From Agrobacterium tumefaciens (GTDB lineage Bacteria > Pseudomonadota > Alphaproteobacteria > Rhizobiales > Rhizobiaceae), in the NCBI GenBank assembly GCA_025560025.1, contig CP048487.1, forward strand, positions 322,413 to 386,412: a stretch of 64,000 nucleotides of DNA, in the 5' to 3' direction. Made by a program: the position numbers and the translations under genes. Below are positions 3,641-24,065 of the stretch, piece after piece; within the stretch, counting starts at the first letter, position 1; every line of letters begins with the position of its first letter. The notes beneath the pieces are model-generated. The model worked only from the letters and a program-made list of their open reading frames with translations. It did not search any database and was not told where the DNA came from.

Positions 3641-3651
3641 CAAAATCTATA

Positions 3652-3670
3652 GATTATAAAATATATAATT
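3652..3670. promoter_or_regulatory. Island operator copy A (AT-rich palindrome), before the dipeptide-type ABC operon
   Basis: The segment holds ATTATA and TATAAT arms around a 5-base centre, about 85-100 bases before the start at 3755. Its reverse complement matches copy E (24047-24065) at 13 of the first 15 positions. It shares TATAAAATATATAA with the reverse complement of copy B. It is inferred to be a binding site of the GntR regulator at 19517-20242. Confidence 0.5.
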
Positions 3671-3754
3671 GCATTAGAGCCGCCCTATTTCCCTCTCCCC
3701 TGCAGGAGAACCCCCGTTCGGTGTCTTTTGAAACTCTAACAGCAGAGCAGATAT

Positions 3755-5341
3755 ATGAAAATCGGTACCTCTCCCCTTCTCTTAGCTGGCGCTCTGTTGG
3801 CGCTCGCTCCGGCTGTACTCGCACAATCCTCGAGTACCCCGGTTTTCGGCGGCACCCTCAAGATCGCTGTCTATGAGGCTCCGGTCTGCGTGGACCCGAT
3901 CCAGATTACGAATTTCACGCCGCTCAACATAGCGCGCAACTTCGCGATCTCTCTGACCGATCAGGATCCCGTGACCGGCGCGGTCAAGCCATGGGCGGCG
4001 GAAAGCTGGGAAATCAATGCTGACGCCACGGAATATACCTATCATCTGCGCAAGGACATCACCTATGCGGATGGACAGAAGCTCGATGCAAAATCGGTCA
4101 AGGCCAACCTTGAGAACATTCGCAACAAAATCGGCCCGAAAGCGAACAGACCCTATAATTATCTGACCTATTACGCCGGCAGCGACATTGTCGACGATTA
4201 TACGATCAGGATAAAATTCTCGCATCCGTCCGGCCATTTCCTGACCGCCGCGTCCTCGGCATGGCTTGCGCTTTATTCCGATGCGACGCTTGCGAAAACC
4301 GCCGAAGAGCGCTGCGCGGGCGCGCTGATCAGCGCCGGTCCCTTCAATCTGACGAAATGGTCGCAGCTTGAAGGCGCGACGCTGGAACGGCGCGAGGATT
4401 ACACATGGGCCTCGCCAAGTTCCAAAAATCCCGGCAAGCCCTATCTCGAAAAGATCGAATTCGTCATCGCGCCGGAGGACAATGTCCGCACCGGACTGCT
4501 GGAATCCGGCGAGGTCCAGCTCATCACCAATGTCAACGTCTCCGATCAACCAACGCTGGAAGCCGCAGGCTTCACGCTCGACGTGGGCCGCAACCCCGGC
4601 ACACCGTTCGGGCCTCAGTTCAACGTCAAGACGCCGATCCTGAGCGACGTGAAGGTACGGCAGGCATTGCTGCACGCCGTCGACCGTCAGGAAATGATCG
4701 CCGCTATCGAAAGCCCCAAGGCGGTTCCCGCGACCGGCGTGCTCGTCAACTCGGTTCCGGGCGCAATCGACCAGAGCGCGGACATCGCCTATGATCCCGA
4801 TCTCGCCAACAAGCTGCTCGACGAGGCGGGCTGGACGGAACTCGACGCCAACGGCGTCCGCGTCAAGGACGGCAAACCGCTGCGCATCGTCCTGAGCGGC
4901 TATGGCCAGTATCGCAGCCAGGCTGAATACATCCAGCAGGCCGCGAAGAAGATCGGCGTCGATCTGGCGCTTGAACTGATCCCGGATGGCAGCGACATCG
5001 TCACCAATATCCTCAATCCGCACAAGTTTGAGATCATCTTCGGCAACGCCACCGAGGCCGACCCGGACGTCCTGCGTTCCTACTACGGGCCGGAACAGCG
5101 CAATGTCCCCAATTCGGACGACGAATGGCTGAAGAAAGCCGTCATCGAGCAGCTTGCGCTCAGCAAGCCGGAAGACCGCTTCGCCAAGATCGCCGAGATA
5201 CAGCGTCATATCGTCGATCAAGCCTATGCCAATCCGCTATATCCGGTCACGCAGGTCTTCGCCCGTGACGCCAAGCTGAAGGGCGCGCTGCCGGATGTTC
5301 TGGTCCGCCTGCGCCTCGAAGCGGCATGGCTGGAACAATGA
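3755..5341 (+). CDS. ABC transporter substrate-binding protein, peptide/nickel family (SBP_bac_5)
   Basis: The protein is 528 residues long with a clear signal peptide (LLLAGALLALAPAVLAQ, cut near residue 23). The family hallmarks follow: early AAESWEINADATEYTYHLRKD, then FGPQFNVKTPILSDVKVRQALLHAVDR, and near the end a Tyr/Asp-rich segment. It binds the cargo in the periplasm and hands it to the permeases encoded just downstream; the stop overlaps the next start. Relatives carry oligopeptides, glutathione, opines, nickel and, in aminopolycarboxylate degraders, metal-EDTA-type ligands, so the cargo is open. It is the first gene of a four-gene importer operon preceded by operator copy A. Confidence 0.9.
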   Translation: MKIGTSPLLLAGALLALAPAVLAQSSSTPVFGGTLKIAVYEAPVCVDPIQITNFTPLNIARNFAISLTDQDPVTGAVKPWAAESWEINADATEYTYHLRKDITYADGQKLDAKSVKANLENIRNKIGPKANRPYNYLTYYAGSDIVDDYTIRIKFSHPSGHFLTAASSAWLALYSDATLAKTAEERCAGALISAGPFNLTKWSQLEGATLERREDYTWASPSSKNPGKPYLEKIEFVIAPEDNVRTGLLESGEVQLITNVNVSDQPTLEAAGFTLDVGRNPGTPFGPQFNVKTPILSDVKVRQALLHAVDRQEMIAAIESPKAVPATGVLVNSVPGAIDQSADIAYDPDLANKLLDEAGWTELDANGVRVKDGKPLRIVLSGYGQYRSQAEYIQQAAKKIGVDLALELIPDGSDIVTNILNPHKFEIIFGNATEADPDVLRSYYGPEQRNVPNSDDEWLKKAVIEQLALSKPEDRFAKIAEIQRHIVDQAYANPLYPVTQVFARDAKLKGALPDVLVRLRLEAAWLEQ

Positions 5342-6324
5342 GCATCGCCGAGACATCTCCCGCCAGGCCCTCATCGTCATCGATGCGGGCAAGCGGCATA
5401 TTGCCTTATATTGTCCTGCGCCGGCTGCTTCAGGCTATTTTCGTTGCATGGGCAAGCTTCACGCTCGCCTTCGCCATCCTCTACTGGCTACCGGGCGATC
5501 CGGTGGCAATCATGATCGGGCCAGACGCGCATCTCGACGCGACGGAACTGGCGAAGCTGCGCGCGCAATACGGTTTCGACCGTCCCTTGATCGTGCAATA
5601 TTTGGACGCGCTCTGGCGCGCCGTTCATCTCGATTTCGGCACATCGCTGGTGACAGGCAAAGATGTGACTGCAAGCATCGCGGCGGCCGCCCCGGTAACG
5701 GCGGGACTCGCCCTTGTCAGCCTGACGCTGGCCATCGCTTTCGGCACGCTGTTCGCGGTTCTGTCGCTGGACCTGCCCGGCTTTCCGCGTCTCGGCTTCA
5801 TCGTCTCCAAATTTCCCGCCGTCTTCGTAGCGATACCAACCTTCGTGGTCGGCCTGCTGCTGTTGCAGATATTTGCCTTCAAGCTGCACTGGCTGCCCGC
5901 GACAGGCAGCAAATCATGGTCCACGCTTGTTCTGCCCGCGATTACGCTGGCGGTGCCCGGCTCGGGGATTCTGGGACAGGTTCTCGCCAAGAGCCTGCGG
6001 CGGGCCTATGCGGAAAGCGTCGTGCGAACCTTGCGCGCGCGCGGCTATTCCGAGTTGCGGATACTCCGCCACGCGCTGCGTCAGGCGTCATTACCCGCCT
6101 TCACTATGGCGGGCCTGATCGTCGGCGGCACCATCGCCAGTTCTGTCGTGACGGAAACGGTCTTTTCACGTCAGGGCATAGGGCGGCTGATGCAAATGGG
6201 CGTGACGAACAAGGACATCAATCTGGTCTGCGGGCTGATCGTCTTCTCCGCGCTCGTCTATGTCGTCATCAATCTTGTCGTGGACCTGCTCTATCCCGTT
6301 CTCGACCCAAGGGTGAAATCATGA
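5338..6324 (+). CDS. ABC transporter permease, DppB-like
   Basis: The protein is about 328 residues long. It has an N-terminal membrane segment after VLRRLLQAIFVAWASFTLAF, the LPGDP motif that follows the first segment in DppB permeases, and the EAA-type loop (RTLRARGYSELRILRHALR). The chosen start is the ATG at 5338, which overlaps the stop of the binding-protein gene as ATGA and implies translational coupling. An ATG at 5326 is the alternative. It forms half of the membrane channel with the DppC-like protein encoded next. Confidence 0.9.
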   Translation: MSIAETSPARPSSSSMRASGILPYIVLRRLLQAIFVAWASFTLAFAILYWLPGDPVAIMIGPDAHLDATELAKLRAQYGFDRPLIVQYLDALWRAVHLDFGTSLVTGKDVTASIAAAAPVTAGLALVSLTLAIAFGTLFAVLSLDLPGFPRLGFIVSKFPAVFVAIPTFVVGLLLLQIFAFKLHWLPATGSKSWSTLVLPAITLAVPGSGILGQVLAKSLRRAYAESVVRTLRARGYSELRILRHALRQASLPAFTMAGLIVGGTIASSVVTETVFSRQGIGRLMQMGVTNKDINLVCGLIVFSALVYVVINLVVDLLYPVLDPRVKS

Positions 6325-7184
6325 GCGACATTTCCCCGGAAGCCGCCTTCTTCGAAGCCCGCGATGTGGGCGCGGCCATCGTCCGAAGACACTGGGCGGC
6401 CATTCTCGCATTCGCCTATCTTGCCGTCCTGGCCCTATGGGTGGCATTTCCGTCGGCATTCACCATCCACGATCCACTTGGCGTCGCTGTTACCTCGAAG
6501 CTGCTGCCACCCTCCGCGGAACATTGGTTCGGCACCGATCATCTCGGACGCGACGTGCTGACGCGCATCATTTTCGGAACGCAGAATTCGCTGATGGCGA
6601 CGCTTATCGCCGTGCTGATCGGTCTTGTCGTCGGCTCCGCCGTCGGGCTGATCTCGGGCTTCGGGCCGGAACGCCTCGATGCCGCGATCATGCGTGTGGT
6701 CGATGTGCTGCTCGCCATTCCCAACCTGCTGCTCAGCCTCGCCATCGTCACCGCCCTCGGTTTCGGGCTGGTTCCCGTGGCGATAGCCGTCGGCATCGGC
6801 TCCGTGGGAAGCTTCGCCCGCATCATGCGCTCGGAGGTAATCCGGGTGAAAAAGCTGCCTTTCGTCGAATCCGCGCGCCTGCTTGGTGCGTCCCCCGCCG
6901 ATGTGGCGATACGCCATGTGCTTCCGCACTCATGGGGGCCGGTGGTGGCGCTTTCCGCCATCGAATTCGGCGCGGCCGTGCTTTCCGTCTCAGCCTTGAG
7001 CTTTCTCGGTTTCGGCGCGCCCCCGCCCGAAATCGAATGGGGCCTGCTCGTCTCCGAGGGCCGAAAATTCATCAGCGCCGCATGGTGGCTGATCGCATTT
7101 CCAAGCCTTTTCATTGTTCTGACCGTCGTGGCGGCCAATGTTGTCGGGCAATTCCTGGAGGAACGACTTGGACAGGCATATTGA
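6321..7184 (+). CDS. ABC transporter permease, DppC-like
   Basis: The protein is about 287 residues long. It has the HWFGTDHLGRDVLTRIIFGTQ segment that marks DppC/OppC permeases, several hydrophobic segments, the EAA loop (FVESARLLGASPADVAIRHVLPH) and the terminal LSFLGFGAPPPEIEWG motif. It begins with an ATGA overlap with the preceding permease gene and pairs with it in the inner membrane. Its end overlaps the start of the ATPase gene. Confidence 0.9.
   Translation: MSDISPEAAFFEARDVGAAIVRRHWAAILAFAYLAVLALWVAFPSAFTIHDPLGVAVTSKLLPPSAEHWFGTDHLGRDVLTRIIFGTQNSLMATLIAVLIGLVVGSAVGLISGFGPERLDAAIMRVVDVLLAIPNLLLSLAIVTALGFGLVPVAIAVGIGSVGSFARIMRSEVIRVKKLPFVESARLLGASPADVAIRHVLPHSWGPVVALSAIEFGAAVLSVSALSFLGFGAPPPEIEWGLLVSEGRKFISAAWWLIAFPSLFIVLTVVAANVVGQFLEERLGQAY
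7156..7163 (+). promoter_or_regulatory. Ribosome binding site that fixes a TTG start
   Basis: TGGAGGAA lies 4 bases before the TTG at 7168 and inside the end of the upstream permease gene. No suitable ATG is nearby in that frame with a comparable site, so the ATPase probably begins with TTG. Confidence 0.6.
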
Positions 7185-8913
7185 TTTCCCCGGTGCCGAA
7201 ACGGATCGCGGCATCCTGCTCGACATCGACAGGCTGTCGTTCTGGTATGGCGACGCGGGCCAGAAAGCGCCGACCTTGGACGCGGTTTCGCTGAAAGTGC
7301 TCAAAGGAGAAGTCGTCGCGCTGGTCGGCGAATCCGGCTCGGGCAAATCGACCCTCATCAATTGCGTGATCGGACTTCACGCCGGCCACGATACGCGCGT
7401 CGAAGCGGAGGCGCTGCGCTTTCAGCAAACGGATTTGCGAGACCTCTCCGAGCGCGAATGGCGCAGGCTGCGTGGGCGGCATATCGCCTATGTCTCGCAA
7501 GACCCAACGGGATCGCTCAACCCGCTTACGACGGTCGGCGACCAGCTTCAGGAAGCCCTGCGTTTCTTCCACCCCAACCTTGGACGCGCGGAAGCGAAAC
7601 GCGAGGCGCTGGAACTGATGCGCAAAGTGGGCTTCGCCGAACCGCAGAATATTTATGGCCGCTATCCACACCAGCTTTCAGGTGGCATGAACCAGCGCAT
7701 CTCCATCGCCGCCGCCCTGTGCGGCGAGCCGGAATTGCTTCTTGCCGACGAACCCACCAGCGCGCTCGACGTTTCCGTGCAGAAGCAGGTGCTGGACCAT
7801 CTGGAAAAGCTGGTCGTCGAAACCGGAACCGCCATGCTTTTCATCACCCACGATCTCGCCGTCGCGGCGGATCGGGCCGAACGCATCGTGGTGCTGCAAC
7901 ATGGGCATGTCCGGGAGGAAGGCCCCGTCGAAACGGTTCTGGCCTCGCCCCGGCATGGCTATACACGGCAATTGCTGGCGGCCGCACCGTTTCTCCAAGA
8001 TATCGGCGAACCCGAAAAGGACGTAGGCAACCAAGCACCGGAGAAGACGGATAGTGCGACCGGCGAGAATCGCCTCCTTAATATCGAGGGACTCGAGAAG
8101 CATTTCGGCGACCACGACGGCAGCCGCTTCACCGCCGTCGGCGGCATCAACCTGCATGTCGACCGGCAGGAAACGGTTTGTGTCGTCGGTGAGTCCGGCT
8201 CTGGCAAGACCACGCTGGCGCGACTGATACTCAAGCTGACGGCAGCCGATGCTGGCAATGTCCACTTCAATGGATATGACGTACGCCATCTGTCCGGCGC
8301 GGCGCTCAAGCAATACAGGCGCGAGGCGCAGATGGTTTACCAGAACCCGTTCGCCTCGCTCGATCTGCGCTATAATGTCCGAGAAATTCTTTGCGAACCG
8401 CTCAGGATTCACGGCATCGGAAGCCGGAGCGAACGGCGCGGCGAAGCAAGCCGCATGCTCGATCTGGTCGGCCTTCCTGAAAAATTCCTGGAACGACGAC
8501 CGGGCGAATTGTCCGGCGGGCAAAGGCAGCGCGTTGCAATTGCCCGCGCGCTCATCACTTCGCCAAAACTGTTGATCCTGGACGAAGCCGTGTCCGCGCT
8601 GGACGTATCGGTGCAGGAGCGCATTCTGGAACTGCTGCGCTCGATCCAGCAGGAACTGGGGCTGGCCTACCTGTTCATCACCCATGACTTGTCGGTGGTC
8701 CACAATTTCTCCGACCGCGTCTATGTCATGAAGCGCGGTGAAGTCGTCGAATCCGGCAGCACGGCATCCGTCTTCGACGCGCCGCAACACGATTATACGC
8801 GGCTCCTTCTGGCGTCCGCCCCCGGACAGTTGGCGCGCGGCAAAGTCGAGAACAGCGCAGCGGTTGAACCAGAACGTCCCTATGGACCGGCCCCCATCGT
8901 GGTGGCGCGATGA
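7168..8913 (+). CDS. Double-domain ABC transporter ATPase (DppD-DppF fusion, GsiA-like)
   Basis: The protein is about 581 residues long with two complete nucleotide-binding domains in one chain. The first has Walker A GESGSGKST near residue 54, a signature LSGGMNQR (Met where Gln is usual) and Walker B LLLADEPTSALD. The second has Walker A GESGSGKTT near residue 343, signature LSGGQRQR and Walker B LLILDEAVSALD. It powers import through the two permeases encoded upstream. The TTG start is supported by a strong ribosome binding site and gives a 17-base overlap with the DppC-like gene. It is the last gene of the importer operon. Confidence 0.92.
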   Translation: MDRHIDFPGAETDRGILLDIDRLSFWYGDAGQKAPTLDAVSLKVLKGEVVALVGESGSGKSTLINCVIGLHAGHDTRVEAEALRFQQTDLRDLSEREWRRLRGRHIAYVSQDPTGSLNPLTTVGDQLQEALRFFHPNLGRAEAKREALELMRKVGFAEPQNIYGRYPHQLSGGMNQRISIAAALCGEPELLLADEPTSALDVSVQKQVLDHLEKLVVETGTAMLFITHDLAVAADRAERIVVLQHGHVREEGPVETVLASPRHGYTRQLLAAAPFLQDIGEPEKDVGNQAPEKTDSATGENRLLNIEGLEKHFGDHDGSRFTAVGGINLHVDRQETVCVVGESGSGKTTLARLILKLTAADAGNVHFNGYDVRHLSGAALKQYRREAQMVYQNPFASLDLRYNVREILCEPLRIHGIGSRSERRGEASRMLDLVGLPEKFLERRPGELSGGQRQRVAIARALITSPKLLILDEAVSALDVSVQERILELLRSIQQELGLAYLFITHDLSVVHNFSDRVYVMKRGEVVESGSTASVFDAPQHDYTRLLLASAPGQLARGKVENSAAVEPERPYGPAPIVVAR

Positions 8914-9047
8914 CTGGCGCGGGCGTTTCGTCGCGCTGTCAGTTGCGCGCCGGAAGGCCGGAATTTTTGCAGCAAAACGTTCATGGACCGGCCTCTTCGG
9001 GCATTCGATTTTCCCGTCCACGGCATCTTCGAAAACCTGTTTCTTCA

Positions 9048-9067
9048 TTTTATATATTTTATAGAAT
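9048..9067. promoter_or_regulatory. Island operator copy B, before the luciferase-like monooxygenase pair
   Basis: The sequence is TTTTATATATTTTATAGAAT. From the second base it matches copy E at 17 of 19 positions. It lies 75 bases before the GTG start at 9142. It is inferred to be a GntR operator overlapping the promoter. Confidence 0.55.
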
Positions 9068-9141
9068 ATAGAATTCTACAGAACGAATAGGCTTGTCCGC
9101 GTCCGTTCAGTCGCAGTCCGTTTCTATTTCAGGATATTGCC

Positions 9142-10065
9142 GTGTCGTCCACGTCCCAAATTCCGCGCCCAAACACAGATTTAGTCGTAGGCCCAGTCGT
9201 CGGTTTGAGTATCGACGCTGAAGAGGCGCTGCGCCAGCTGTCGGCGCTGCAAACGCGTGATGCGAAGCTCCCGCGTCCTGCCGCCGACTTTCTTCTGATC
9301 CGCGACCACCCTGCGGGCGGGAACGGCGAGGATGTGCAGGCGCAGCTTGTCGCCTCGTTTGCTGCCGGGCGGCTGGACGGCATCGGCATCGTGCCCGAAA
9401 TCGACGTCTTTCGCGGTGACCCCTATCTGGTCGCGCGCGCCATCGCCAGCCTCGACATATTGTCGAAAGGACGCGCCGGTTTCATTCCCCTCACCGCACC
9501 TGTTGATTTGCTCGACATAGGCTATGCCAGGACCGCCTCGGACGCGGAATATGTCGCCGAATTCGTCGCCGTCGTCGATAGTCTCTGGAATAACTGGCAG
9601 CCGGGCGCTCTGGCGCGTGACTGGAAAAACAACCGCTATATCGACCGCAATCGCATTCGCGAAGCCAATCATGAAGGGCCGTATTTCTTGGTCAAGGGAC
9701 CGTTGCCGACGCCAACCGCGGTGCAGGACACCCCGCCGGTGATCGCGCGCCGCCATCCGGCCCATGCCGGGATCGCAGACAGAGCGTCTGCCTTGATCCA
9801 TGACGGGGCGGCAACCGCCGGTCAGGGCGAAAGCCCTGCGCTTCTGGAAATATTGCTCGATTCCCCGTCTCTCCCTGACTCCTTCGCCGCCCACATGGGC
9901 GTTGTCCTGCGCGCCGAAGGCGGGTTTGCCGACTGGGCGGAGCTTGTCGATCGCACCCACCGGGCGCATGCGCGGCTCGACCTTAAATGGCGGCCATCTG
10001 ACGGCACCCTCGCGGATATTCTTGCCCGCCCTGCAACATCGATTTCGGAAATATCCCATGTCTGA
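9142..10065 (+). CDS. Short luciferase-like protein (LLM class, divergent)
   Basis: The protein is 307 residues long, shorter than typical flavin-dependent LLM monooxygenases. It keeps the family pattern of an N-terminal strand set, a DGIGIVPEIDVFRGDPYLVARAIASLDILSKGRAGF region matching the core barrel, and a WNNWQPGALARDW segment common near the flavin site. Much of the substrate lid and C-terminal barrel is missing or unusual. It starts with GTG after AGGA and overlaps the next, full-length LLM gene by 8 bases, so the two are likely made together. It could be a partner or non-catalytic subunit; I cannot tell whether it binds FMN. Confidence 0.65.
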   Translation: MSSTSQIPRPNTDLVVGPVVGLSIDAEEALRQLSALQTRDAKLPRPAADFLLIRDHPAGGNGEDVQAQLVASFAAGRLDGIGIVPEIDVFRGDPYLVARAIASLDILSKGRAGFIPLTAPVDLLDIGYARTASDAEYVAEFVAVVDSLWNNWQPGALARDWKNNRYIDRNRIREANHEGPYFLVKGPLPTPTAVQDTPPVIARRHPAHAGIADRASALIHDGAATAGQGESPALLEILLDSPSLPDSFAAHMGVVLRAEGGFADWAELVDRTHRAHARLDLKWRPSDGTLADILARPATSISEISHV

Positions 10066-11347
10066 CAAACGCCGCGTCCGCATCGCCGCCCAGTACAATG
10101 CCGAAGACCCTTTTGAAATCTGGCACCCCGATCTCGCCGCCGAACTGAACACGGAAGTCTCCTTCCGTCATGCCGCCACCACATACCACGAAGGACTGTT
10201 CGATTTCTATTTTCAGGCGGAAACCGCCGCCCTGCCCTCGGGCGAGAACGGCATTCCCGACGCGAAGGTCATCGGCCGGCTCGACAATCTGACGACGCAA
10301 TCATGGCTGGCCGCGCTCTATCCCGATCTCGGCTTCGTCGCCACGATCAACACCGGCAACAACGTGCCTTACGATCTGGCGCGCAAGCTGCACAGCTTCG
10401 ATCTCATCACCAACGGGCGCTCCGGCTGGAATGTCGTCCTTGGCGGCAATCCCAAGGCGCATCTCAACCACCGCGCCAAGGCGGTGCCGGAACAATCCGT
10501 CGATCGCTATGAACTCGGGCGCGAGATCGTGGACAGCGTCATCGAGTCACTGACCGGACAAAGGCCAGCCGGTTCTCAACCGCAGCATTTTCCAGCACCC
10601 GCCGGTCGTCTTCTGCCGCCAACCCGACAGGGCGCGCCCTTCACCATTCAGGCGGGAGATTCCGGTCGCAGCCGCGATCTCGCCGCCTCCTATGCCGACG
10701 GTCTCTACACGCATTATGCCGACGAGATCAACGGCCGCGCCTTCCGCAGTGACCTGCATGAACGCCTGCGTGCCAAGGGACGTGACCCGGAACAATTCAA
10801 GATCTACTCACGTTTAGCCGTGCTTGTCGGCGAAAACGACGCGGATGCGCGCGATCGCCACAAGGCGTTGTTGCCCTATCAGCTTCATGAAAAGCTCGTG
10901 GTGGAGTATGTCACAGAAATTTGGGGCAAAAGCTTCACCGAACTGGATATCGATGGGCCACTACCCAACGACGCCCCCACTAAGGGCCATACGGTCAATC
11001 TCGGTCTCTCCTACGGTCTCTATCTCGACGGACCGGCCGACAAGGCGGTCGAGCGGCTACGCCGCATTTCGGCGGAACATGGCGGCGCGGGCTTGCGCGA
11101 GACGTTGGTGCTCGCGGCCGGAACCCATTACATCCACGGCGGGCCTGTGACTGTGGCCGGAGAACTGCGTCGCCTGGTCGAAGCGGGCGCGACAGACGGC
11201 TTCGTCATCGCACCCCATTCCGCGCCCGATTGGCTGAAGGATTTCGTCAATCGCGTGGTTCCGGTTCTGCAGGACTGGGGCGTTTACGCTACGGAATATC
11301 ACGATGAAACGCTGCGGGAACGCGTGTTACGTGAGGTCGCGGCGTAA
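10058..11347 (+). CDS. FMN-dependent monooxygenase, NtaA/SnaA/DszA family
   Basis: The protein is about 429 residues long and belongs to the bacterial luciferase superfamily branch that includes nitrilotriacetate and EDTA monooxygenases. Typical segments are HEGLFDFYFQAE, the central NVPYDLARKLHSFDLITNGRSGWNVV and TGATDGF-like text near the end (VEAGATDGFVIAP). Such enzymes use FMNH2 from a separate reductase and O2 to cleave C-N or C-S bonds in the cytoplasm. No flavin reductase lies in this operon; two FMN reductases occur elsewhere in the window. The gene overlaps the short LLM gene, and both sit just after the dipeptide-type importer. Confidence 0.85.
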   Translation: MSDKRRVRIAAQYNAEDPFEIWHPDLAAELNTEVSFRHAATTYHEGLFDFYFQAETAALPSGENGIPDAKVIGRLDNLTTQSWLAALYPDLGFVATINTGNNVPYDLARKLHSFDLITNGRSGWNVVLGGNPKAHLNHRAKAVPEQSVDRYELGREIVDSVIESLTGQRPAGSQPQHFPAPAGRLLPPTRQGAPFTIQAGDSGRSRDLAASYADGLYTHYADEINGRAFRSDLHERLRAKGRDPEQFKIYSRLAVLVGENDADARDRHKALLPYQLHEKLVVEYVTEIWGKSFTELDIDGPLPNDAPTKGHTVNLGLSYGLYLDGPADKAVERLRRISAEHGGAGLRETLVLAAGTHYIHGGPVTVAGELRRLVEAGATDGFVIAPHSAPDWLKDFVNRVVPVLQDWGVYATEYHDETLRERVLREVAA

Positions 11348-11481
11348 GAGAGCACCCTCATCCGCCCGTGCCTCAGCAGCGGACCAAGAGTCGGTCACTT
11401 CGCAAGCAGGTGCACATGCCAATGCTTTTCCTCAGCCTGAAACACTCCCGTCTACGTGCGACTTCAGACCAAATTACCAAG

Positions 11482-11523
11482 CAGGCTCTTCCGGCAGGGC
11501 TTTGTCGAAAGAGGCCTGTTTCT
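11482..11523 (+). terminator. Possible transcription terminator after the monooxygenase pair
   Basis: CAGGCTCTT (11482-11490) can pair with AAGAGGCCTG (11509-11518), with one bulge, and TTTCT follows. The position suits the end of the monooxygenase operon. The stem is imperfect and the T run is short. Confidence 0.3.
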
Positions 11524-11586
11524 AGATATTGTTTTCATAGCCTGCCTTACAGACGCAACTTTCTCCCTTCAACATAAACCTGATTA

Positions 11587-11609
11587 ATTTTATATATTAT
11601 ATATAAAAT
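11587..11609. promoter_or_regulatory. Island operator copy C, before the amino-acid ABC operon
   Basis: This is a perfect 23-bp palindrome: arms ATTTTATATAT and ATATATAAAAT around a single central T. Within it, 11589-11607 matches copy E at 18 of 19 positions. It lies about 130 bases before the start at 11738. It is the best copy of the set. Confidence 0.6.
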
Positions 11610-11737
11610 GGAGCTTCATCATTGGATCGCACAACGTTCCGGGTGCTTCCGTTTTGTGACATCATCCAATGGGCCAACCGGCAACGAAAGCATCCGGCAG
11701 GCATGCAGTCAGACCTCCATTTTCAAGGGATTATAGA

Positions 11738-12592: not shown

Positions 12593-12605
12593 GAACCCTT
12601 TCTCC

Positions 12606-14361: not shown

Positions 14362-14401
14362 GGTACGCCATCATGAGACAACCCTAATGCAGGTGTAGAC
14401 A

Positions 14402-16108: not shown

Positions 16109-16153
16109 CGGTGCGCCAGTTTCGCGACAGGACGATTGACGGGAATCCGAACA

Positions 16154-17605
16154 ATGTATGACGAACTGTATCTCTATATCGATGGAACATGGATCGACGG
16201 CGGCGGACGCCATCAGGAAGCCGTTCTCGACCCGGCCACCAACCGTACGTTAGGCCACCTGCCACGTGCCACGACGGACGATCTGGACCGGGCGGTGGAG
16301 GCCGCGCATCGTGCTTTTCTCGCCTGGCGGGATGTCTCCCCTCTCGAACGCAGCAATGTGCTGCGCCGGGCCGCAACGCTGCTTCGCGAACGCAACGCGG
16401 AAATCGACAGGCAGATCACGCTCGATCAGGGCAAACCGCTCGCGGAGGCGATCGGGGAAGTGAATGCCGCTGCCGATTCTCTCGCCTGGCACGCGGAAGA
16501 AGGACGGCGCGTTTACGGCCGCATCGTGCCCGCCCGCAATCCGTTCGTGCGGCAAACCATTCTGCGTCAGCCAGTCGGCGTCTGCGCGGCTTTCACACCG
16601 TGGAATTTTCCGATCATGCAGGCCGTCCAGAAGGTGGCTGCGGCGCTGACGACCGGCTGCACCGTCGTGCTCAAGGGGCCGGAGGACTCTCCTTCCGGCG
16701 TGGTCGCGCTCGCACGCGCATTGCATGATGCTGGTCTTCCCCATGGCTGCCTCAATCTTGTCTGGGGCGTACCGGGCAAAGTGTCGGAATATCTCGTGCC
16801 GCATCCGCTGGTCAGGAAAATCTCCTTCACCGGCTCCGTTGCAGTCGGCAAACAGCTTGCATCCCTTGCTGGCCTGCACATGAAGCGCAGCACGATGGAA
16901 CTGGGCGGGCATGCACCCGTGCTGATCTTCGATGACTGCAATCTGGAGCATGCGGTTGCCCTGCTGGCCGACAGAAAGATCCGTAATGCCGGGCAGGCCT
17001 GCGGCGCACCGACACGCTTTTATGTGCAGGACAAGGTCTTCGAACAGTTTTCCGAGCTTTTCACCCGCCGCCTGCAGGCAATCAGGGTTGGTGCCGGAAC
17101 CGTGCCGGAAACCGAAATGGGGCCTCTCTGCCACGGGCGCAGGCTCGATGCCATGAAGGCTTTCGTGGCCGATGCGAAATCATCCGGCGCGGACATTCTT
17201 CTGGGTGGTGAACAGAGCGGCAAGGAAGGCAATTTCTTCCAGCCCACCGTTATCGCCAACCCATCGGCTTCCTCGCGCATCATGACGGAAGAGCCTTTTG
17301 GCCCTGTCGCCACCCTCCTGCCGTTTAACACCTTCGATGAGGTGATCGAACGGGCGAACTCGCTTCCCTATGGCCTGTCTTCCTTCGTGTTCACCGGATC
17401 GGCGGATATTGCGCAGGAAGCGGGCCGCCAGCTGGAAGCGGGCGCGGTCAACATCAATCACATCGGCGTCGGCCTGCCGGAAATCCCCTTCGGCGGTGTC
17501 AAGGACAGCGGCTATGGCAGCGAAGGCGGGCAGGAATCCCTCGATGGATATCTGACCACCAAGGTGCTGACGCAACTGGCCGTATCGGACCACCTCCGGC
17601 GCTGA
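16154..17605 (+). CDS. NAD(P)-dependent aldehyde dehydrogenase
   Basis: The protein is about 483 residues long, a normal length for the family. It shows FTPWNFPIMQAVQKVAAAL in the cofactor domain, MELGGHAPVLIFDD containing the general-base Glu, and NAGQACGAPTRFYV with the catalytic Cys. The EEPFGPVA segment follows near residue 380. It most resembles succinate-semialdehyde and related dehydrogenases. It probably oxidises the aldehyde made by the neighbouring GMC enzyme. The chosen start is the ATG at 16154. Confidence 0.9.
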   Translation: MYDELYLYIDGTWIDGGGRHQEAVLDPATNRTLGHLPRATTDDLDRAVEAAHRAFLAWRDVSPLERSNVLRRAATLLRERNAEIDRQITLDQGKPLAEAIGEVNAAADSLAWHAEEGRRVYGRIVPARNPFVRQTILRQPVGVCAAFTPWNFPIMQAVQKVAAALTTGCTVVLKGPEDSPSGVVALARALHDAGLPHGCLNLVWGVPGKVSEYLVPHPLVRKISFTGSVAVGKQLASLAGLHMKRSTMELGGHAPVLIFDDCNLEHAVALLADRKIRNAGQACGAPTRFYVQDKVFEQFSELFTRRLQAIRVGAGTVPETEMGPLCHGRRLDAMKAFVADAKSSGADILLGGEQSGKEGNFFQPTVIANPSASSRIMTEEPFGPVATLLPFNTFDEVIERANSLPYGLSSFVFTGSADIAQEAGRQLEAGAVNINHIGVGLPEIPFGGVKDSGYGSEGGQESLDGYLTTKVLTQLAVSDHLRR

Positions 17606-17650
17606 TCGGCGCGACCAGAGCAATTTTCCAGAAGAGAAGGAGCAATCCTG

Positions 17651-18853
17651 GTGTCACACAACGTTGAACATCTGCATGATATCCTCGGTGAAGACATCGT
17701 CGACAAGGTTCATGCCAAAACCCTGAGTATCGATGTGCATATCGATGTGCGGGACGGGTTCAATACACCCGATAACGATGCAAGCGGTGAAACTGCGGGA
17801 CAGTTCGATCTGCCGAAATTCCTGCGCGGCGGCCTCAAGGTCGCGGTACTGGCTACAGCGGCCGATCCGTCACCCAATACGGAAGAAGGCCGCAAGCGCG
17901 CAAGACAGCAGGTCGAGACCAAATACGATGCCATCCGCAGACTGGTGGAAGCCCATCCCGACAAGATCGCATTCGCGAAAAGCACCAAGGATATTCAGGC
18001 AATCGTCGAAAGCGGCAGGCAGGCGATTCTGTTGAGCTTCCTGAATGCCGTAGCTCTTGGCGAAGACGTTTCCGCCATCGCACAATTGCATGAAAGAGGC
18101 GTCCGCCTGCTCGGTCTGGCGCATATCGGCAATAACAGCTTTGCTGATTCCTCGCGTCCCAATGCGGCTTTTGGCGATGCGTCCTCACCGGCAGGCGGCT
18201 TAACCCCGCTTGGCAGACAGGCAATCGCCGAGCTTAATCGCCTTGGAATCGTCATCGATGTCAGCCAGTTGACGCCTGAGGGCGTTGCCCAATCCATCGC
18301 CTTGAGCAAGACGCCGGTTATCGCCTCGCATTCCGCCATTCGCGCCCGCGTGGATTCGCCCCGCAATCTCAACAATGCCGAGCTGCACGCCATCGCCAGA
18401 TCGGGCGGCGTTGTCCATATCGTCGCCTTCGCGGCCTATATTCGCGACCGGGACGGCAGTCACGAAGCTTTCGTCAAGGAGGTATTCGAGCCGTTCGGCC
18501 TGAAACAGGGCATCGATGAACCGCGTGAGGTGCTTTCGGCAGAAGATTTTGAGCGTTTCCAGGTGGGCTATCGCAAGTTCTCCGCCAAGAGACTGCAATT
18601 TGCCAGCCTTGTCGATTATCTCGACGCCGTCGATTACGCTGTCCGGCTGATCGGCATCGAGCATGTCGGCATAGGTTCGGATTTCAACAATGGCGGCGGC
18701 GTTTTGGGTTATGCCCATGTCGGTGAAGCACGCAACCTCACGCGTGAACTGCTGCGTCGCGGTTACGATGAAGCATCGATAGCGAAGCTCTGGGGCGGAA
18801 ATTTCCTGCGTGTCCTGGAACAGGCAGAGAAATACACCACGGCAAACTCCTGA
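17651..18853 (+). CDS. Membrane dipeptidase family protein (peptidase M19)
   Basis: The protein is 400 residues long. It keeps the M19 layout: a metal-binding motif near residue 29 (DVHIDVRDG, where DGHND is usual), LSFLNAVALGEDVSAIAQLHERGVRLLGLAH, the GNNSFADS region, GIVIDVSQL, PVIASHSAIRA and the final IGIEHVGIGSDFNNGGG. M19 enzymes hydrolyse dipeptides or related amide bonds with two zinc ions. No signal peptide is seen, so it probably acts in the cytoplasm on imported material. It starts with GTG after AAGGAG. The altered first metal motif may reflect an unusual substrate. Confidence 0.85.
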   Translation: MSHNVEHLHDILGEDIVDKVHAKTLSIDVHIDVRDGFNTPDNDASGETAGQFDLPKFLRGGLKVAVLATAADPSPNTEEGRKRARQQVETKYDAIRRLVEAHPDKIAFAKSTKDIQAIVESGRQAILLSFLNAVALGEDVSAIAQLHERGVRLLGLAHIGNNSFADSSRPNAAFGDASSPAGGLTPLGRQAIAELNRLGIVIDVSQLTPEGVAQSIALSKTPVIASHSAIRARVDSPRNLNNAELHAIARSGGVVHIVAFAAYIRDRDGSHEAFVKEVFEPFGLKQGIDEPREVLSAEDFERFQVGYRKFSAKRLQFASLVDYLDAVDYAVRLIGIEHVGIGSDFNNGGGVLGYAHVGEARNLTRELLRRGYDEASIAKLWGGNFLRVLEQAEKYTTANS

Positions 18854-18883
18854 AATCAAGAACCTTTGGAAAGGAAACACCAC

Positions 18884-19486
18884 ATGACAAACACTCTCCT
18901 CTCCGGCAGCCAGGGCCTTTCCTGGCTAGAACTGCAGTCGATCACACCGGAACCTGCTGTGCAGGAGATTTTCGTGCGGACAAAGGAACGCTTCGGCCAT
19001 ATCCGTAACGCGCAGCGCATCGTGGCACACCGGTCGGCGCTCGCACTGGCCCAGGACCGGCTGAGCCGGGCAGTTCAAAATGCACCGGACAGCGGCATCA
19101 CTCCCTTCGAACGAGAACTGATAGCCCTCGTGGTCAGCGTCGAGAACAGATGCGAACCCTGCGTCTTCGCTCACGCCGCCATTCTGCGAGAGATTTCTCA
19201 GGATCCCGCCCTTGTCGGCAAAATCGAAGTGAACTATCGCCATGTTGATCTGACGGAGCGCCAGCGAGCTCTTGCGAACTACGCCGTCAAGGTAAGCCTT
19301 TCTCCATCATTGATAGAGGAATCGGATATCGGGAAACTCAGGGACGCGGGTCTGGGCGAGTACGAAATTCTCGATGCAGCGGCGATCATCGCCTACTTCA
19401 ACTTCAGCAACAGGCTGAACAGCGCACTCGGCATCAAGCCGAATGACGAAGCCTACGAAGCCAACAGAACCTTTTCGAAAGAATAA
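18884..19486 (+). CDS. AhpD/carboxymuconolactone decarboxylase-like protein (peroxidase-related)
   Basis: The protein is about 200 residues long. It has the AhpD-type CEPCVFAH sequence (C-x2-C-x3-H), the redox-active site of alkylhydroperoxidase D-like proteins, inside a helical domain, followed by FNFSNRLNSALG as in peroxidase-related enzymes. Such proteins remove peroxides or act as small-molecule redox enzymes. Here it may protect against peroxide released by the flavin enzymes of the island, which is inference. GAAAGGAAA supports the ATG at 18884. It is the last gene of the amino-acid-importer operon. Confidence 0.85.
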   Translation: MTNTLLSGSQGLSWLELQSITPEPAVQEIFVRTKERFGHIRNAQRIVAHRSALALAQDRLSRAVQNAPDSGITPFERELIALVVSVENRCEPCVFAHAAILREISQDPALVGKIEVNYRHVDLTERQRALANYAVKVSLSPSLIEESDIGKLRDAGLGEYEILDAAAIIAYFNFSNRLNSALGIKPNDEAYEANRTFSKE

Positions 19487-19516
19487 GTCTGTACTGCGCT
19501 GTCATCATCGCGCGCT

Positions 19517-20242
19517 TTACGTCGCGATCGCATCTGCTTGTGGAATATCAACGGGATCGGCTTCCCTCAACGGTTCCGCCGATCTCCTCAATCCCTGCCA
19601 CGCACCCTTGAAATGCACTTTGAGGAGATCGGCCGCACGTTCGGCGTCATGCTTCTCCACCGCATCGACGATTTCCGTGTGTTCCAGTGCCACTTTTTTC
19701 CAATCTTCCGAGTTGTGCTCGCGCATGCCGCGGAAGCGAGTGCTGTAGAGCCGTGCATTCAGATTGTCGTGGAGCTCGATCAACGTGGGATTACGGGATA
19801 TTCTGACCAGCGTGGAGTGAAACTCCTGATTGGTATGGAAATAGGTGATCTGGTCGTTGTTCTCCACGGCCTTGATCATCTTCGCCACCAAGGCCCGGAG
19901 CCGGGCGACGTCTTCCTTAACGGCGTTTAGCGCCGCAAGTTCACCGCCGAGCATATCCAGGCGGGAATAAACGGTCAGCATCTGGGACGCCTCGTCCGCT
20001 CCCAGTTTGGCCACCACCACACCGCGATTAGGCACCATGTCGACAAGACCCAACGCCGCCAGCGTCTTGAATGCTTCCCGAACCGGCGTCATCGAGACAT
20101 TCAGTTCCTCGGCTATCGACTGGATAGTGAGCTTCTGGCCGGGCTTGAAAACTTCTTCGCCAATCCTGTCGCGGACATAGTCAACAATTTGTTCCGCCAA
20201 GGTCTGACGGGTGACGCCCGCCCTTTCCGTTCGCTTACGCAT
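19517..20242 (-). CDS. GntR family regulator, FCD (FadR-like) subfamily; proposed island regulator
   Basis: The protein is about 241 residues long. The N-terminal winged helix has QTLAEQIVDYVRDRIGEEVF and the recognition part IQSIAEELNVSMTPVREAFKTLAALGLVDMVPNRG. The C-terminal FCD domain has the metal/ligand-binding His/Asp residues spread over HTNQEFHSTL and later segments. FCD regulators often bind the substrate or an intermediate of the pathway they control. The start at 20242 is preferred over 20323 because the operator-like copy D at 20297-20315 would otherwise lie inside the gene. Related sites at four other island promoters suggest that it governs the whole 3.6-25.3 kb block. Confidence 0.88.
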   Translation of the reverse strand: MRKRTERAGVTRQTLAEQIVDYVRDRIGEEVFKPGQKLTIQSIAEELNVSMTPVREAFKTLAALGLVDMVPNRGVVVAKLGADEASQMLTVYSRLDMLGGELAALNAVKEDVARLRALVAKMIKAVENNDQITYFHTNQEFHSTLVRISRNPTLIELHDNLNARLYSTRFRGMREHNSEDWKKVALEHTEIVDAVEKHDAERAADLLKVHFKGAWQGLRRSAEPLREADPVDIPQADAIAT

Positions 20243-20296
20243 ACTGTTCCTTATCTGCTTCGCGCTGATTCGATTACCATCGCCAATGAAATTTGC

Positions 20297-20315
20297 TTTT
20301 TTATATTCTATCAGA
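20297..20315. promoter_or_regulatory. Island operator copy D, before gntR (autoregulation)
   Basis: TTTTTATATTCTAT (20298-20311) matches copy E at 12 of 14 positions. It lies 55-73 bases upstream of the proposed gntR start. This is the weakest copy of the set. Confidence 0.4.
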
Positions 20316-20369
20316 TCGCGCAAGAACTTTCGCTATTCCGGGCCGGATTATGGAAGCCTATCACCTATG

Positions 20370-21791
20370 CTACAGGTCGAGCCCCGCAATCTCGCTCAGC
20401 GATATCGGGAAAACCGGCGGTCGAAGCCGATAGTAGCCTGTAACGTCCATGCTTGCATTCAAGTGGTCGGCGATGCTCTCGCTGACGGCAAGTCCGCATT
20501 GCCGCCCCTGGCATGGTCCCATGCCGCATCTCAGAAAGGCCTTCAACTGGTTCGGCCCACGGACGGGTAGCTGGGAAAGCGTATCGCGCAACTGATCGGC
20601 TGTGATTTCCTCACAGCGGCACAGGATTGTCGCGCCATCACCCTGACGCTGCCGCGGCGTTGGGAGATAGAGCCGATCGAGCAAAGCTCGACCTCTCCTG
20701 GCAGCGTGTCGCCCTCGGCGATGTGGGCGGCCGAGTTGGTCGCGGGTTTTGCTGTCAATACAGCCCAGCCTATGGCAAGCTTCGAGAGCCGCCAATGCAC
20801 CGGCATGCCGTGCGGATTTCGCCCCGGCGACCGCGGCCCCGTCTCCGACGACGGATATAGCTTCCAGGTTGCTGACACCCCAGGCATCGAGCGCCGGTTC
20901 GAAAACGGCACGCTTACTGCTCCACGCATGGCGCACACCCGCTGCAGCGGCAAGTTGGATATCCGGCACGAGACCCTGATGCAGGAACAGGTAGTCAAAG
21001 TCCGTCTCGAAACTCCGATTGCCCCTGCGATATCGCAAAACGCGGCGTTCATTCTCCGCCTTGATGGAGAGCAGTTCGGCAGCACGGACTACCGGGACGG
21101 CGCAATGGACTCGGGCGATTAGAGAAAGTCCCTTTCCGGCGAATTGCGACAGGAGGAAGCCAGGCAGGAGCATCAGAGCGCGCAGCAGGTTTCCTCGCGC
21201 TGTCGTGTCGACAACCAGCGCCGGCGGATGACCAGCAGCAATGTACTGGCTTGCGACAAGCCAGAGCAGTGGGCCGCATCCGGCCAACACGACACGCCCG
21301 TCGGCAACGACGCCGTGGCCCTTGAGCAGTATCTGGGCTGCGCCAACGGTCATGACTCCTGGCAGGGTCCATCCGCTGACAGGCATAGGCCGTTCCATGG
21401 CGCCAGTCGCAAGAATGACGTGACGACAGGAAACCATGCGGCTTTCACCTGCGGCCGAAAGACCGATCTGCGGAGTGCCGTCGAGGAACCAGACGGTGGC
21501 GTTCGGCAGATAGTCGCACGGAGTTTCACGAAACTCGGCGGCGAGCCCGGCTCCCTTTTCGTAGTCAGATCCGAGCAGCCGCGCCCTGTTTTTCGGCACG
21601 GTGGCCACACCCCGGTAGATTTGCCCGCCTTCTTCGCGCGACCGGTCGGCGACCAGTACGGAAAGGCCATGCCCTGCTGCCATAATCGCGGCACTCATGC
21701 CAGCCGGTCCTGCGCCGATGATAACAAGATCATACCGCGCCTCGATCGCCCCCACGGCATCCAATCGGCGGATACCTGTTCCTGCCGTCAT
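20370..21791 (-). CDS. FAD-dependent oxidoreductase, large subunit (HcnB/OoxA/D-hydroxyproline dehydrogenase type)
   Basis: The protein is about 473 residues long. It has VIIGAGPAGMSAA near residue 24 (FAD), a second nucleotide-binding motif (VVLAGCGPLLW) near residue 170, and a C-terminal [2Fe-2S] cluster module with Cys 391, 393, 422 and 427. This layout is shared by HcnB of hydrogen cyanide synthase, opine oxidase subunits and D-hydroxyproline dehydrogenase, all of which oxidise a C-N bond of an amino acid to an imine. The start codon overlaps the stop of the small ferredoxin-like subunit (ATGA). Sequence alone does not separate the possible substrates. Confidence 0.85.
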   Translation of the reverse strand: MTAGTGIRRLDAVGAIEARYDLVIIGAGPAGMSAAIMAAGHGLSVLVADRSREEGGQIYRGVATVPKNRARLLGSDYEKGAGLAAEFRETPCDYLPNATVWFLDGTPQIGLSAAGESRMVSCRHVILATGAMERPMPVSGWTLPGVMTVGAAQILLKGHGVVADGRVVLAGCGPLLWLVASQYIAAGHPPALVVDTTARGNLLRALMLLPGFLLSQFAGKGLSLIARVHCAVPVVRAAELLSIKAENERRVLRYRRGNRSFETDFDYLFLHQGLVPDIQLAAAAGVRHAWSSKRAVFEPALDAWGVSNLEAISVVGDGAAVAGAKSARHAGALAALEACHRLGCIDSKTRDQLGRPHRRGRHAARRGRALLDRLYLPTPRQRQGDGATILCRCEEITADQLRDTLSQLPVRGPNQLKAFLRCGMGPCQGRQCGLAVSESIADHLNASMDVTGYYRLRPPVFPISLSEIAGLDL

Positions 21792-22087
21792 GGCGCGGTC
21801 TCCGTAGCGATAGTGACGATGCCACGAACATCCACGCCCTCCCGTACCGGCGTCATGCAGGCTTGCACCGGCGCATCCCCGTTCACGCTGATCAGACAGT
21901 CGAAGCAGACGCCCATCATGCAATAAGGTCCGCGGGGCGTCCCGGATACGGGCGTCTTCCTGAAGACGTTGCGCCCGGCAGTCAGGAGCGCCGCGGCAAT
22001 GCTATCGGTTGCCCGCGCGGAGATGCTTTCGCCCTCGAAGCTGAACGTGACCTCCGGCGCCTCGGTTTCGTCCAGACGTTTGAACAT
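21788..22087 (-). CDS. (2Fe-2S)-binding small subunit (HcnA-like)
   Basis: The protein is 99 residues long with four cysteines at 56, 61, 64 and 77, arranged as C-x4-C-x2-C-x12-C in PYCMMGVCFDCLISV and VQAC. This is the Fer2_4-type domain of the small subunit of HcnABC-like dehydrogenases. It relays electrons between the flavin subunits. It is encoded between the DAO-type subunit and the large subunit on one transcript and is translationally coupled to the latter. Confidence 0.88.
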   Translation of the reverse strand: MFKRLDETEAPEVTFSFEGESISARATDSIAAALLTAGRNVFRKTPVSGTPRGPYCMMGVCFDCLISVNGDAPVQACMTPVREGVDVRGIVTIATETAP

Positions 22088-22099
22088 TTCCCCACCCTT

Positions 22100-23257
22100 T
22101 CAATGGCTGGTTATATGCGATGTGTTTCCCACGGTGAAACGCGCAGGCGAAAAAGGTGCAAGCACATCCGGAATCTCATCGTCCAGGATGGCCTTCGGCA
22201 GATATTCGCAATGAACCGGGGCGAGCGTAACGCCGCTATGCACGGTCGCAAGCCATGCTCCCGGATGCGTAGGCGAGCGAGCATAGAGCGGCAGGCCATC
22301 CGGCGACATGATCCTGAGTGCTCCCCAACTCCGGACAAGGCTGGCGTGGCCGAGTGATGGAAAGACCCTGAGCGCGCGGTTCGCCAGCACGGACATGGAG
22401 GCCGTCAGCACACTATCATCGAAGCCGACCTCTTCCATCGTGTCCCCGATCAGACAGGTTCCTTCCGGCATCTGTCGCATGATGTTCGAGACATACGGCA
22501 TGAAGGGTGCAAGCCTGTTGGTAACGAGAATCTGACCCCTTACCGGCCGTACCGGCGCCTCCAGCCCCACTTGCGGCGCAAGTTCGCGATTGCCGAGTCC
22601 CGCGGCCAGCAGAACGCGCGCCGCGCCGATTTTCCCCTCATCCGTCGAGATCGAATAACCGAAGCCGTCGCCGGCGATGTTGCGCACCTTCCCGCCTGCG
22701 ATCAAGGTCGCCCCACTCTTGGCGAGCACGCTTTGAAGCGCGCGCAAAAGATTGAGCGGATTGGCGCCACCATCGTGAGGACAATAGACCGCCCCGGCGA
22801 TTTCACCACCAATCCAGGGGAGAAGCCCCGCGACTCCACCACGGTTCAGCATCTCGAACTTGAAAAGTTCCTCCGTCTGCTCCGCGAGACGCGTCATTGC
22901 GCTTCGCTTCGCTTCGAATTCCTCCTGAGTCAGACAAAAGCCAAGACCACCCGGTCTTGAGAAACCGGTGTCGATGCCGGTCTCCTCGAAAAGAAAGCGG
23001 GAGAAATCCGCCCATCCATCCGATGCACGTCGCGTCAAGCGGGCATAGGCCGGGAAGTCGAGCCCCTTTCCCTGTACCCAGACCATTCCGAAATTACCCC
23101 TCGATGCTCGGAAGGCCCGGTCCGCCTCATCAAGAATGGCCACGCGCGCGCCGAGCCTCACAAGCCCCAAGGCCACCGAGCAGCCAACGATGCCGCCGCC
23201 TACAATAGCCACGTCGAAGCTCGCACCGCCATCGGAAGGAAGAGGAAGAGCTACCAT
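22100..23257 (-). CDS. FAD-dependent amine oxidoreductase, DAO family (HcnC/glycine-oxidase-like)
   Basis: The protein is about 385 residues long. The dinucleotide-binding motif VGGGIVGCSVALGLVRLG lies near residue 17, and the DAO fold continues with PVRGQILVTNRLAPF and a C-terminal WGALRIMSPDGLPLYARSP flavin-contact region. It probably forms the catalytic subunit of a three-part dehydrogenase with the two following genes, taking electrons from an amino or imino acid. The gene starts 6 bases after the racemase-family gene stop. Relatives include HcnC, OoxB/NoxB and iminodiacetate oxidase. Confidence 0.87.
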   Translation of the reverse strand: MVALPLPSDGGASFDVAIVGGGIVGCSVALGLVRLGARVAILDEADRAFRASRGNFGMVWVQGKGLDFPAYARLTRRASDGWADFSRFLFEETGIDTGFSRPGGLGFCLTQEEFEAKRSAMTRLAEQTEELFKFEMLNRGGVAGLLPWIGGEIAGAVYCPHDGGANPLNLLRALQSVLAKSGATLIAGGKVRNIAGDGFGYSISTDEGKIGAARVLLAAGLGNRELAPQVGLEAPVRPVRGQILVTNRLAPFMPYVSNIMRQMPEGTCLIGDTMEEVGFDDSVLTASMSVLANRALRVFPSLGHASLVRSWGALRIMSPDGLPLYARSPTHPGAWLATVHSGVTLAPVHCEYLPKAILDDEIPDVLAPFSPARFTVGNTSHITSH

Positions 23258-23263
23258 CGCGCG

Positions 23264-24004
23264 TTATCGCGGCCGATAGTGTTTCGGGCGCAGACCCGAG
23301 TGGAACCAATGCACAAGACTGACGCTGTCATAGACGGGAATGTTAAAACGATCGGAAATCGCCGCAGAAAATGGTGTCATGTTGGTGCATTCGCAAACGA
23401 TCGCGCCAATATCGGGGTATTGCTTTAGGAAACCCGCCGTCGCATCGAGAATTTCCCGTTCCCACACCTCGTAGGGAACCGACGGATCGCCGTCGCGGAT
23501 TGAGCGGCAAAATTCCGAAGCCGGCGGCATGCCGTAGACCGGTGTGCCCGGATCGACGCCGACGGCCTCAAGGTAGGCACTGGTCAGGTTGTCGCTGGAA
23601 TAGGTGAGAATCCCTACCCGTTTACCCTTGGGAAGAAGGCGTTCCATAAGCGGAGCCTGGAGAAGGGCGCTGGTCGCGACCGGAACGGAGCAGGCTTCCG
23701 CCAGTTCTCTCTGGTAATAGGAAAGAAAGCCGCAAGTGGTGGTGATCCCGTCCACTCCGCCATCGATCAGTTCCTGGGCGGCCTTCTTGAAAGGCTCCAG
23801 CAAATCGCAATTCTGGAGGTTGCCCATCATTGAGGGCAAGGCTCCACGCACAATCTTGTACTGCACCGGAAAGGGCCAGGTTTCGGCATTGCCTATGTCG
23901 CCGACAAACCGTCGGAAATAGGTCTCCACCATCAATATTCCGATGGTGACGCCATAGAACGATTTCTTTCCCTTTGGAGGACTGCCTCCTGGCTCTCCCG
24001 CCAT
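23264..24004 (-). CDS. Aspartate/glutamate racemase family protein
   Basis: The protein is about 246 residues long. Two cysteines in the right places for this two-base family are seen: one in ITTTCGFLSYYQ and one in IVCECTNMTPF. The family covers amino-acid and hydantoin racemases, maleate isomerase and decarboxylases. The ATG at 24004 follows GTGGAG; upstream in-frame codons would read through operator copy E and are rejected. It is the first gene of the operon that encodes the three-subunit dehydrogenase, so it may set the stereochemistry of the substrate or product. Confidence 0.82.
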   Translation of the reverse strand: MAGEPGGSPPKGKKSFYGVTIGILMVETYFRRFVGDIGNAETWPFPVQYKIVRGALPSMMGNLQNCDLLEPFKKAAQELIDGGVDGITTTCGFLSYYQRELAEACSVPVATSALLQAPLMERLLPKGKRVGILTYSSDNLTSAYLEAVGVDPGTPVYGMPPASEFCRSIRDGDPSVPYEVWEREILDATAGFLKQYPDIGAIVCECTNMTPFSAAISDRFNIPVYDSVSLVHWFHSGLRPKHYRPR

Positions 24005-24046
24005 CTCCACACTCCAACTAATTGACAATAAATAAATTAAGTGCAG

Positions 24047-24065
24047 TTTATATATTATATAGAAA
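24047..24065. promoter_or_regulatory. Island operator copy E, divergent promoter
   Basis: The sequence is TTTATATATTATATAGAAA, a near-palindrome. It lies between the racemase operon (start 24004, minus) and the aspartate dehydrogenase operon (start 24106, plus), so one site could control both. It matches copies B and C at 17 and 18 of 19 positions. Confidence 0.6.

Follow-up and report, generated by a model that had tools for sequence, protein, structure and literature searches.

A palindromic A/T-rich motif at five promoters points to a self-regulated GntR/FCD regulon in a catabolic island of an Agrobacterium tumefaciens plasmid

The stretch of DNA analyzed here (the window, 64,000 nucleotides) covers positions 322413-386412 on contig C3 of an Agrobacterium tumefaciens genome and carries a 21.3-kb catabolic island in which five copies of an A/T-rich palindrome, here called sites A to E, lie upstream of genes for importers, oxidoreductases and a GntR/FCD transcriptional regulator. 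We examined whether these copies may be operators of that regulator. The island is 100% identical to pAt, the 386,412-base conjugative plasmid of A. tumefaciens strain 186, which comes from Juglans regia (walnut). At least 80% of the island was found in one place in 18 plasmid records, all from A. tumefaciens, and 66% in the best place of a nineteenth; each of the remaining plasmid matches among those listed (63 records in total) covered at most 2% of the query.

On the forward strand, a peptide/nickel-type ABC importer (binding protein, two permeases and ATPase; 3755-8913) lies downstream of site A, and two LLM flavin-dependent oxidoreductase genes (9205-11347) lie downstream of site B. Downstream of site C, on the same strand, are an amino-acid-type ABC importer (binding protein, permease and ATPase; 11738-14361) and genes for a GMC oxidoreductase, an SSADH-like aldehyde dehydrogenase, an M19 dipeptidase and a CMD/peroxidase-related protein (14402-19486). 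The regulator gene, gntR, is on the reverse strand (19517-20242; start at 20323 in the record), as are the genes for an FAD oxidoreductase, a 2Fe-2S protein, a glycine-oxidase-like DAO protein and an Asp/Glu racemase family protein (20370-23932), which diverge at site E from forward-strand genes for an aspartate-dehydrogenase-like (AspDH) protein and a RidA family protein (24106-25299). The five sites would serve 20 genes, which, judged by spacing and strand, are probably arranged as operons. The peptide-type importer's binding protein scored 316.9 bits against TIGR04028 (curated cut-off 468.5) and the CMD protein 59.2 bits against the TIGR04030 (Avi_7169) peroxidase-like model (curated cut-off 233.15), both below the cut-off; we take these two models to be members of one LLM-linked gene neighbourhood. 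Upstream of the island, at 1907-2578, is a LysR-family gene of 223 amino acids, which is short for that family.

All five related sequences singled out in the preliminary description are present where it had put them. Their consensus, TTYTATATAWTATATARAA, is an odd 19-base palindrome made almost only of A and T. Putative operator A, upstream of the peptide/nickel-type importer, had been placed at 3652-3670; realignment against the orthologous promoter of a second species, Agrobacterium sp. AGB01, where it aligns with a palindrome, puts its centre near 3654 and its extent at 3644-3664, which is the better placement. Putative operator B (9047-9067, centre 9057) lies upstream of the LLM pair and has one mismatch to the motif. 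Putative operator C (11587-11609, matrix place 11597), upstream of the second importer and the dehydrogenases, is a 23-base palindrome, as had been claimed: all 22 positions around its centre are symmetric, and the middle base, the length being odd, cannot pair with itself. Putative operator D (20296-20316, matrix place 20306) lies upstream of ATG 20242 of gntR. Putative operator E (24045-24065, matrix place 24055) matches the motif exactly and occupies a divergent promoter, as had been noted of one copy, between the AspDH-like and racemase genes; a hand count agrees that B and C match it at 17 and 18 of 19 positions. From site centre to start codon the distances are 101 (A), 148 (B), 141 (C), 64 (D) and 51 bases (E; 123 on its other side), with the starts of the record used throughout except for gntR, for which ATG 20242 was taken.

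The motif is largely confined to these sites. When up to three mismatches were allowed, TTTATATATTATATAGAA hit the window six times, always at B, C or E, with no hit in 100 dinucleotide shuffles; the preliminary description, too, had seen no comparable match elsewhere in the window. Across the whole genome (5.68 Mb), B, C and E were the only places within one mismatch; the next best match, apart from the reverse reading of C, had two mismatches (C1:779264), and a reversed-pattern control allowed up to three mismatches gave two forward and two reverse matches. The two-mismatch place (C1:779263-779281) is intergenic, on the large contig C1 of the same genome. A sequence-only profile trained on 14 strings (seven sites and their reverse complements) and run on the own genome with an E limit of 10 picked out no places but B, C, D and E, missing A among the best 150 of 286 candidates; since it was trained on these very sites, it shows only that no other place found scores as well. 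Among 393 family genomes other than the own, exact TATATATTNTATAGAA occurred in five, with three for the reversed control. We took these five as background because the neighbouring reading frames, judged by their first residues, showed no recognizable GntR or LLM cluster. Separately, two genomes with the same genus label (L040 and L041, at about 3023-3066) carry exact TATATATTCTATAGAA near the start of similar long open reading frames, possibly an unrelated conserved site.

The strongest evidence came from the AGB01 locus, of which contig L031 and genome G220 are identical across the 3,648 bases compared. This locus encodes counterparts of GntR (64% identity), the peptide-type importer (binding protein 85%, permeases 78-79%, ATPase 68%), the M19 dipeptidase (69%), the CMD protein (66%) and both LLM proteins (LLM2 79%, LLM1 47%). 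A perfect palindrome, TTCTATATAATATATAGAA, lies upstream of its importer/M19/CMD genes, and TTCTATATAATATATAAGG sits in the intergenic region between its LLM genes and gntR; outside the motif, the upstream regions of the two species align poorly. A matrix built from these two AGB01 sites only ranked as its top five places in the window 9057 (B, 30.0 bits), 11597 (C, 27.8), 24055 (E, 27.3), 3654 (A, 20.4) and 20306 (D, 19.0, the lowest of the five), with the sixth place at 11.3 bits. The five promoters were thus separated from the rest of the window by a gap of 7.7 bits, and the regulon proposed in the preliminary description withstood this search, with a matrix from another species, for equally good sites at random positions. 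Of 100 dinucleotide shuffles of the window, one contained a place of 19.0 bits or more, and 20.4 bits was not attained in any. In the reverse direction, a matrix from B, C and E recovered both AGB01 promoters on L031 together with a third intergenic place near 1594 (about 1582-1604, 25.7 bits). This place is flanked by a gene for a periplasmic binding protein and a further LLM gene, and might be part of the AGB01 regulon too.

The distribution of the motif follows that of the regulator. A GntR ortholog was found in two of 39 Agrobacterium genomes (E≤1e-50), the own genome (G000) and AGB01 (G220), and TTYTATATAWTATATARAA with at most one mismatch occurred at three places in the own genome (all in the island), at one in AGB01 and in none of the 37 others. 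The chance of this agreement (2/2 vs 0/37) is 1 in 741 by a hand calculation that ignores shared ancestry, and the test is not blind because the motif was partly defined from these two genomes. At exactly two mismatches, ten other genomes had one place each, vs six genomes for the reversed-pattern control. In wider searches with GntR, 199 family genomes gave 34 matches (E≤1e-30), the best outside the own genome being 40% identical. Searches in class (385 genomes), order (397) and family (394) returned the own genome only, on the best seven or fewer candidates per genome and at E limits of 1e-47 or 1e-48, and these may have missed orthologs. A genome-contig search returned AGB01 and four loci at 22-31% identity from spirochaete assemblies; the plasmid collection (E limit 1e-40) yielded 19 records, all at least 99% identical, and the viral contigs searched gave no match. 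A protein search found GntR homologs at 47-90% identity, among them proteins of Agrobacterium vitis, of Salipiger sp. P9 and from metagenomes, for which DNA context was compared in AGB01 only. A real palindrome might nevertheless be read by another regulator, for instance one resembling BioR or one whose gene lies outside the island, since the sites are assigned to GntR from sequence and since site C contains the BioR consensus TTATMKATAA exactly (11597-11606, its sole occurrence in the window). We give this little credence: the BioR consensus is present in just one of the five sites, the motif accompanies the GntR ortholog in both genomes that have it, and it lies upstream of gntR in both species, albeit weakly in the window.

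We then considered how such a protein could recognize such a site. The window protein carries a GntR helix-turn-helix (HTH) at its N-terminus and an FCD domain at its C-terminus (PF00392, 60.7 bits, cut-off 27; PF07729, 92.0 bits, cut-off 24.3). According to the report on Atu1419 of Agrobacterium fabrum, Arg45 of that regulator contacts guanine 3 of its operator ATGTATACAT, binding is lost when this G/C pair is replaced by A/T, and the Arg-guanine contact is described as typical of the family (PMC7797058). The helix motif S-x-T-x-x-R appears in the window protein as S-M-T-P-V-R, so that Met51 occupies the Arg45 position, and the same methionine is found in 21 of 21 close homologs (P0001-P0021); the guanine-reading arginine of FadR/VanR regulators is absent from them. 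By comparison, Arg was present in all 21 readable loci of 29 distant ones, the other eight having been dropped when the helix pattern was not found. Upstream of 11 of these 21 we saw a TGTAT-N5-ATACA dyad with at most one mismatch, whereas both Met loci (L001 and L037) were without it, a comparison made with no shuffle control. For the FadR subfamily, Suvorova et al. give the consensus TKGT/ACMA and report that Arg at HTH position 28 prefers G/C, that Pro at 40 avoids G/C and that Asn at 59 leans to A/T, the last not significantly (PMC4494728). By eye, the window protein has a residue other than Arg at position 28, Pro at 40 and an Asn close to 59. TKGT/ACMA boxes were not seen, the GT/AC core being absent from sites A to E and from the AGB01 sites. 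Since Met replaces the guanine-reading arginine, this clade probably reads A/T steps rather than the usual GT/AC core, and the joint loss of arginine and guanine may be the best sequence-level link between protein and operator. The earlier expectation that a GntR/FCD regulator binds a palindrome at its own and pathway promoters is borne out in part: the AGB01 site between gntR and the LLM genes supports it, but lacking the GT/AC core the operator is not a typical palindrome of the family.

Several observations weigh against assigning all five sites to GntR. When the 21-base places of the window are ranked by A/T content, sites A, B, C and E take the first four ranks and D the seventh, so composition contributes to their ranking; with 75 of 2000 column-permuted matrices all five outranked every other place, and the highest summed score of a permuted matrix (123.9) was close to the real one (124.7). 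A and D (20.4 and 19.0 bits) score well below B, C and E (27.3-30.0 bits). The footprinting rests on one other species, AGB01. Finally, four distant FCD homologs (P0030, P0038, P0044 and P0045) carry SMTPVREA, and Met at this position need not imply this operator.

The first of these points raises the idea that the copies are mere A/T-rich core promoter elements, alike because they stand in a replicon of 60% G+C, with no common regulator. Consistent with this, the TATATT that the motif supplies at B and C is -10-like by score, with a spacer of 18 bases, and in a smaller set of permuted matrices 14 of 500 put the same five promoters as the top five. However, none of 2000 column permutations reached the summed score of 124.7 or the 7.7-bit gap, so composition is not enough and the order of letters is needed for the score. 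Promoter-like matches in the region were not above chance (8 found vs 5.5 expected, standard deviation 2.4), and none was found at E. Together with the dyad symmetry, the restriction of the motif to the island at one mismatch genome-wide and its co-occurrence with the GntR ortholog, this makes a purely core-promoter origin of the copies highly improbable.

The weakness of A and D bears on a narrower reading, in which only B, C and E are operators and A and D are A/T-rich look-alikes, leaving the peptide-type importer and gntR outside control. A and D fall 7 to 11 bits short of the other three, and the genome profile misses A. Site D falls within the gntR reading frame as annotated by the record (start 20323); for the site to lie in the promoter, gntR has to begin at ATG 20242. 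The preliminary description had placed one copy before the regulator gene, which holds for the ATG at 20242 and fails, with D intragenic, for the start in the record. P0001, a 90% identical homolog, starts at the residue encoded at 20242, and P0003 (75% identical) starts further upstream; the former fits better with the ATG at 20242 than with 20323. Against the narrower reading, alignment pairs A with the perfect palindrome that precedes the orthologous importer in AGB01, and both A and D stand at least 7.7 bits above the rest of the window outside the five. We regard control of B, C and E alone as unlikely.

Taken together, these results suggest, with a probability that we put at roughly 0.85, that the GntR/FCD regulator encoded at 19517-20242 uses the five sites as its operators and that they define a self-regulated repressor regulon of about 20 genes. 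The idea of a single GntR regulon, advanced previously, thus finds support in the AGB01 matrix and in the co-occurrence with the ortholog, with binding, repression rather than activation, overlap with core promoters and the response to an effector all inferred from sequence. An operator predicted at the regulator's own promoter points to autoregulation; it is strong in AGB01 (gntR/LLM) and weak in the window (site D), where it depends on the gntR start. By analogy with Atu1419, a dimer on each site would keep both importers, the LLM pair, the oxidoreductase modules and gntR switched off. Binding of an imported substrate, or of a catabolite, to the FCD domain would then lift the repression of gntR itself and of the pathway. 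The TATATT of the motif might serve as the -10 box at B and C.

Local and of a known kind, the proposed regulon is unusual in its operator, and a search of the open-access literature found no paper on it with the terms used. Like Atu1419, a regulator of the VanR group of GntR/FCD proteins, GntR would be an Agrobacterium FCD protein that represses a catabolic cluster, with several palindromes at pathway promoters and the helix S-x-T-x-x-R. For the Asn and three His that hold a metal in Atu1419 (N137, H141, H192 and H214), the window protein has candidate equivalents in N138, H142, H188 and H210, which are similarly spaced and invariant in 16 sequences. Unlike here, where the operator has 19 bases without a guanine read by arginine and the protein has Met for Arg45, the operator of Atu1419 is 10 bases long with an Arg45-read guanine (PMC7797058). 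FadR-subfamily regulators likewise have palindromic A/T-rich sites, divergent-promoter sites and likely autoregulation, but they retain the conserved GT/AC core that is absent here (PMC4494728). BioR, also of the GntR family, has an A/T-rich palindrome outside the usual consensus, but its site, as quoted there, is shorter, is contained only in C and serves a different gene set, that of biotin (PMC4494728).

Several genes of the island have no specific counterpart in the AGB01 locus, namely those for the second importer (ATPase cross-matches aside), GMC, SSADH, racemase, AspDH and RidA, and the AGB01 DAO protein is only 27% identical to that of the window. In G220 and G221, searched without a positive control, GMC gave no match at E≤1e-60 and AspDH none at E≤1e-10. 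The comparison of the two loci suggests that extra modules may have joined the island under this operator, the regulon growing by operator gain. A tentative reading, at slightly less than even odds, combines both themes: an FCD clade without Arg45 would have switched to an A/T-only 19-base operator read mainly via DNA shape, and the operator would have gained two extra modules on pAt, one of the second importer, GMC and aldehyde dehydrogenases, the other of the AspDH, racemase and amine-oxidase-like genes. As to the substrate, the solved structures related to the second LLM protein include those of YtnJ, MoxC and the EDTA and NTA monooxygenases, and the importer ATPases score to the GsiA and TcyN models below cut-off. 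These relatives and scores, together with the M19 dipeptidase, give rise to the doubtful proposal of an S- or N-substituted peptide or amino acid. The DAO protein, the 2Fe-2S and FAD subunits, the racemase and RidA instead prompt the weak idea of an opine-like amino-acid conjugate; the FAD subunit had no solved relative at E≤1e-8.

These findings offer a putative operator and regulator for an uncharacterized catabolic island on a conjugative Agrobacterium plasmid, and what may be a natural example of a regulator whose specificity residue and DNA site have changed together. With the regulator known, the substrate would become findable, through compounds that release the regulator from its operator.

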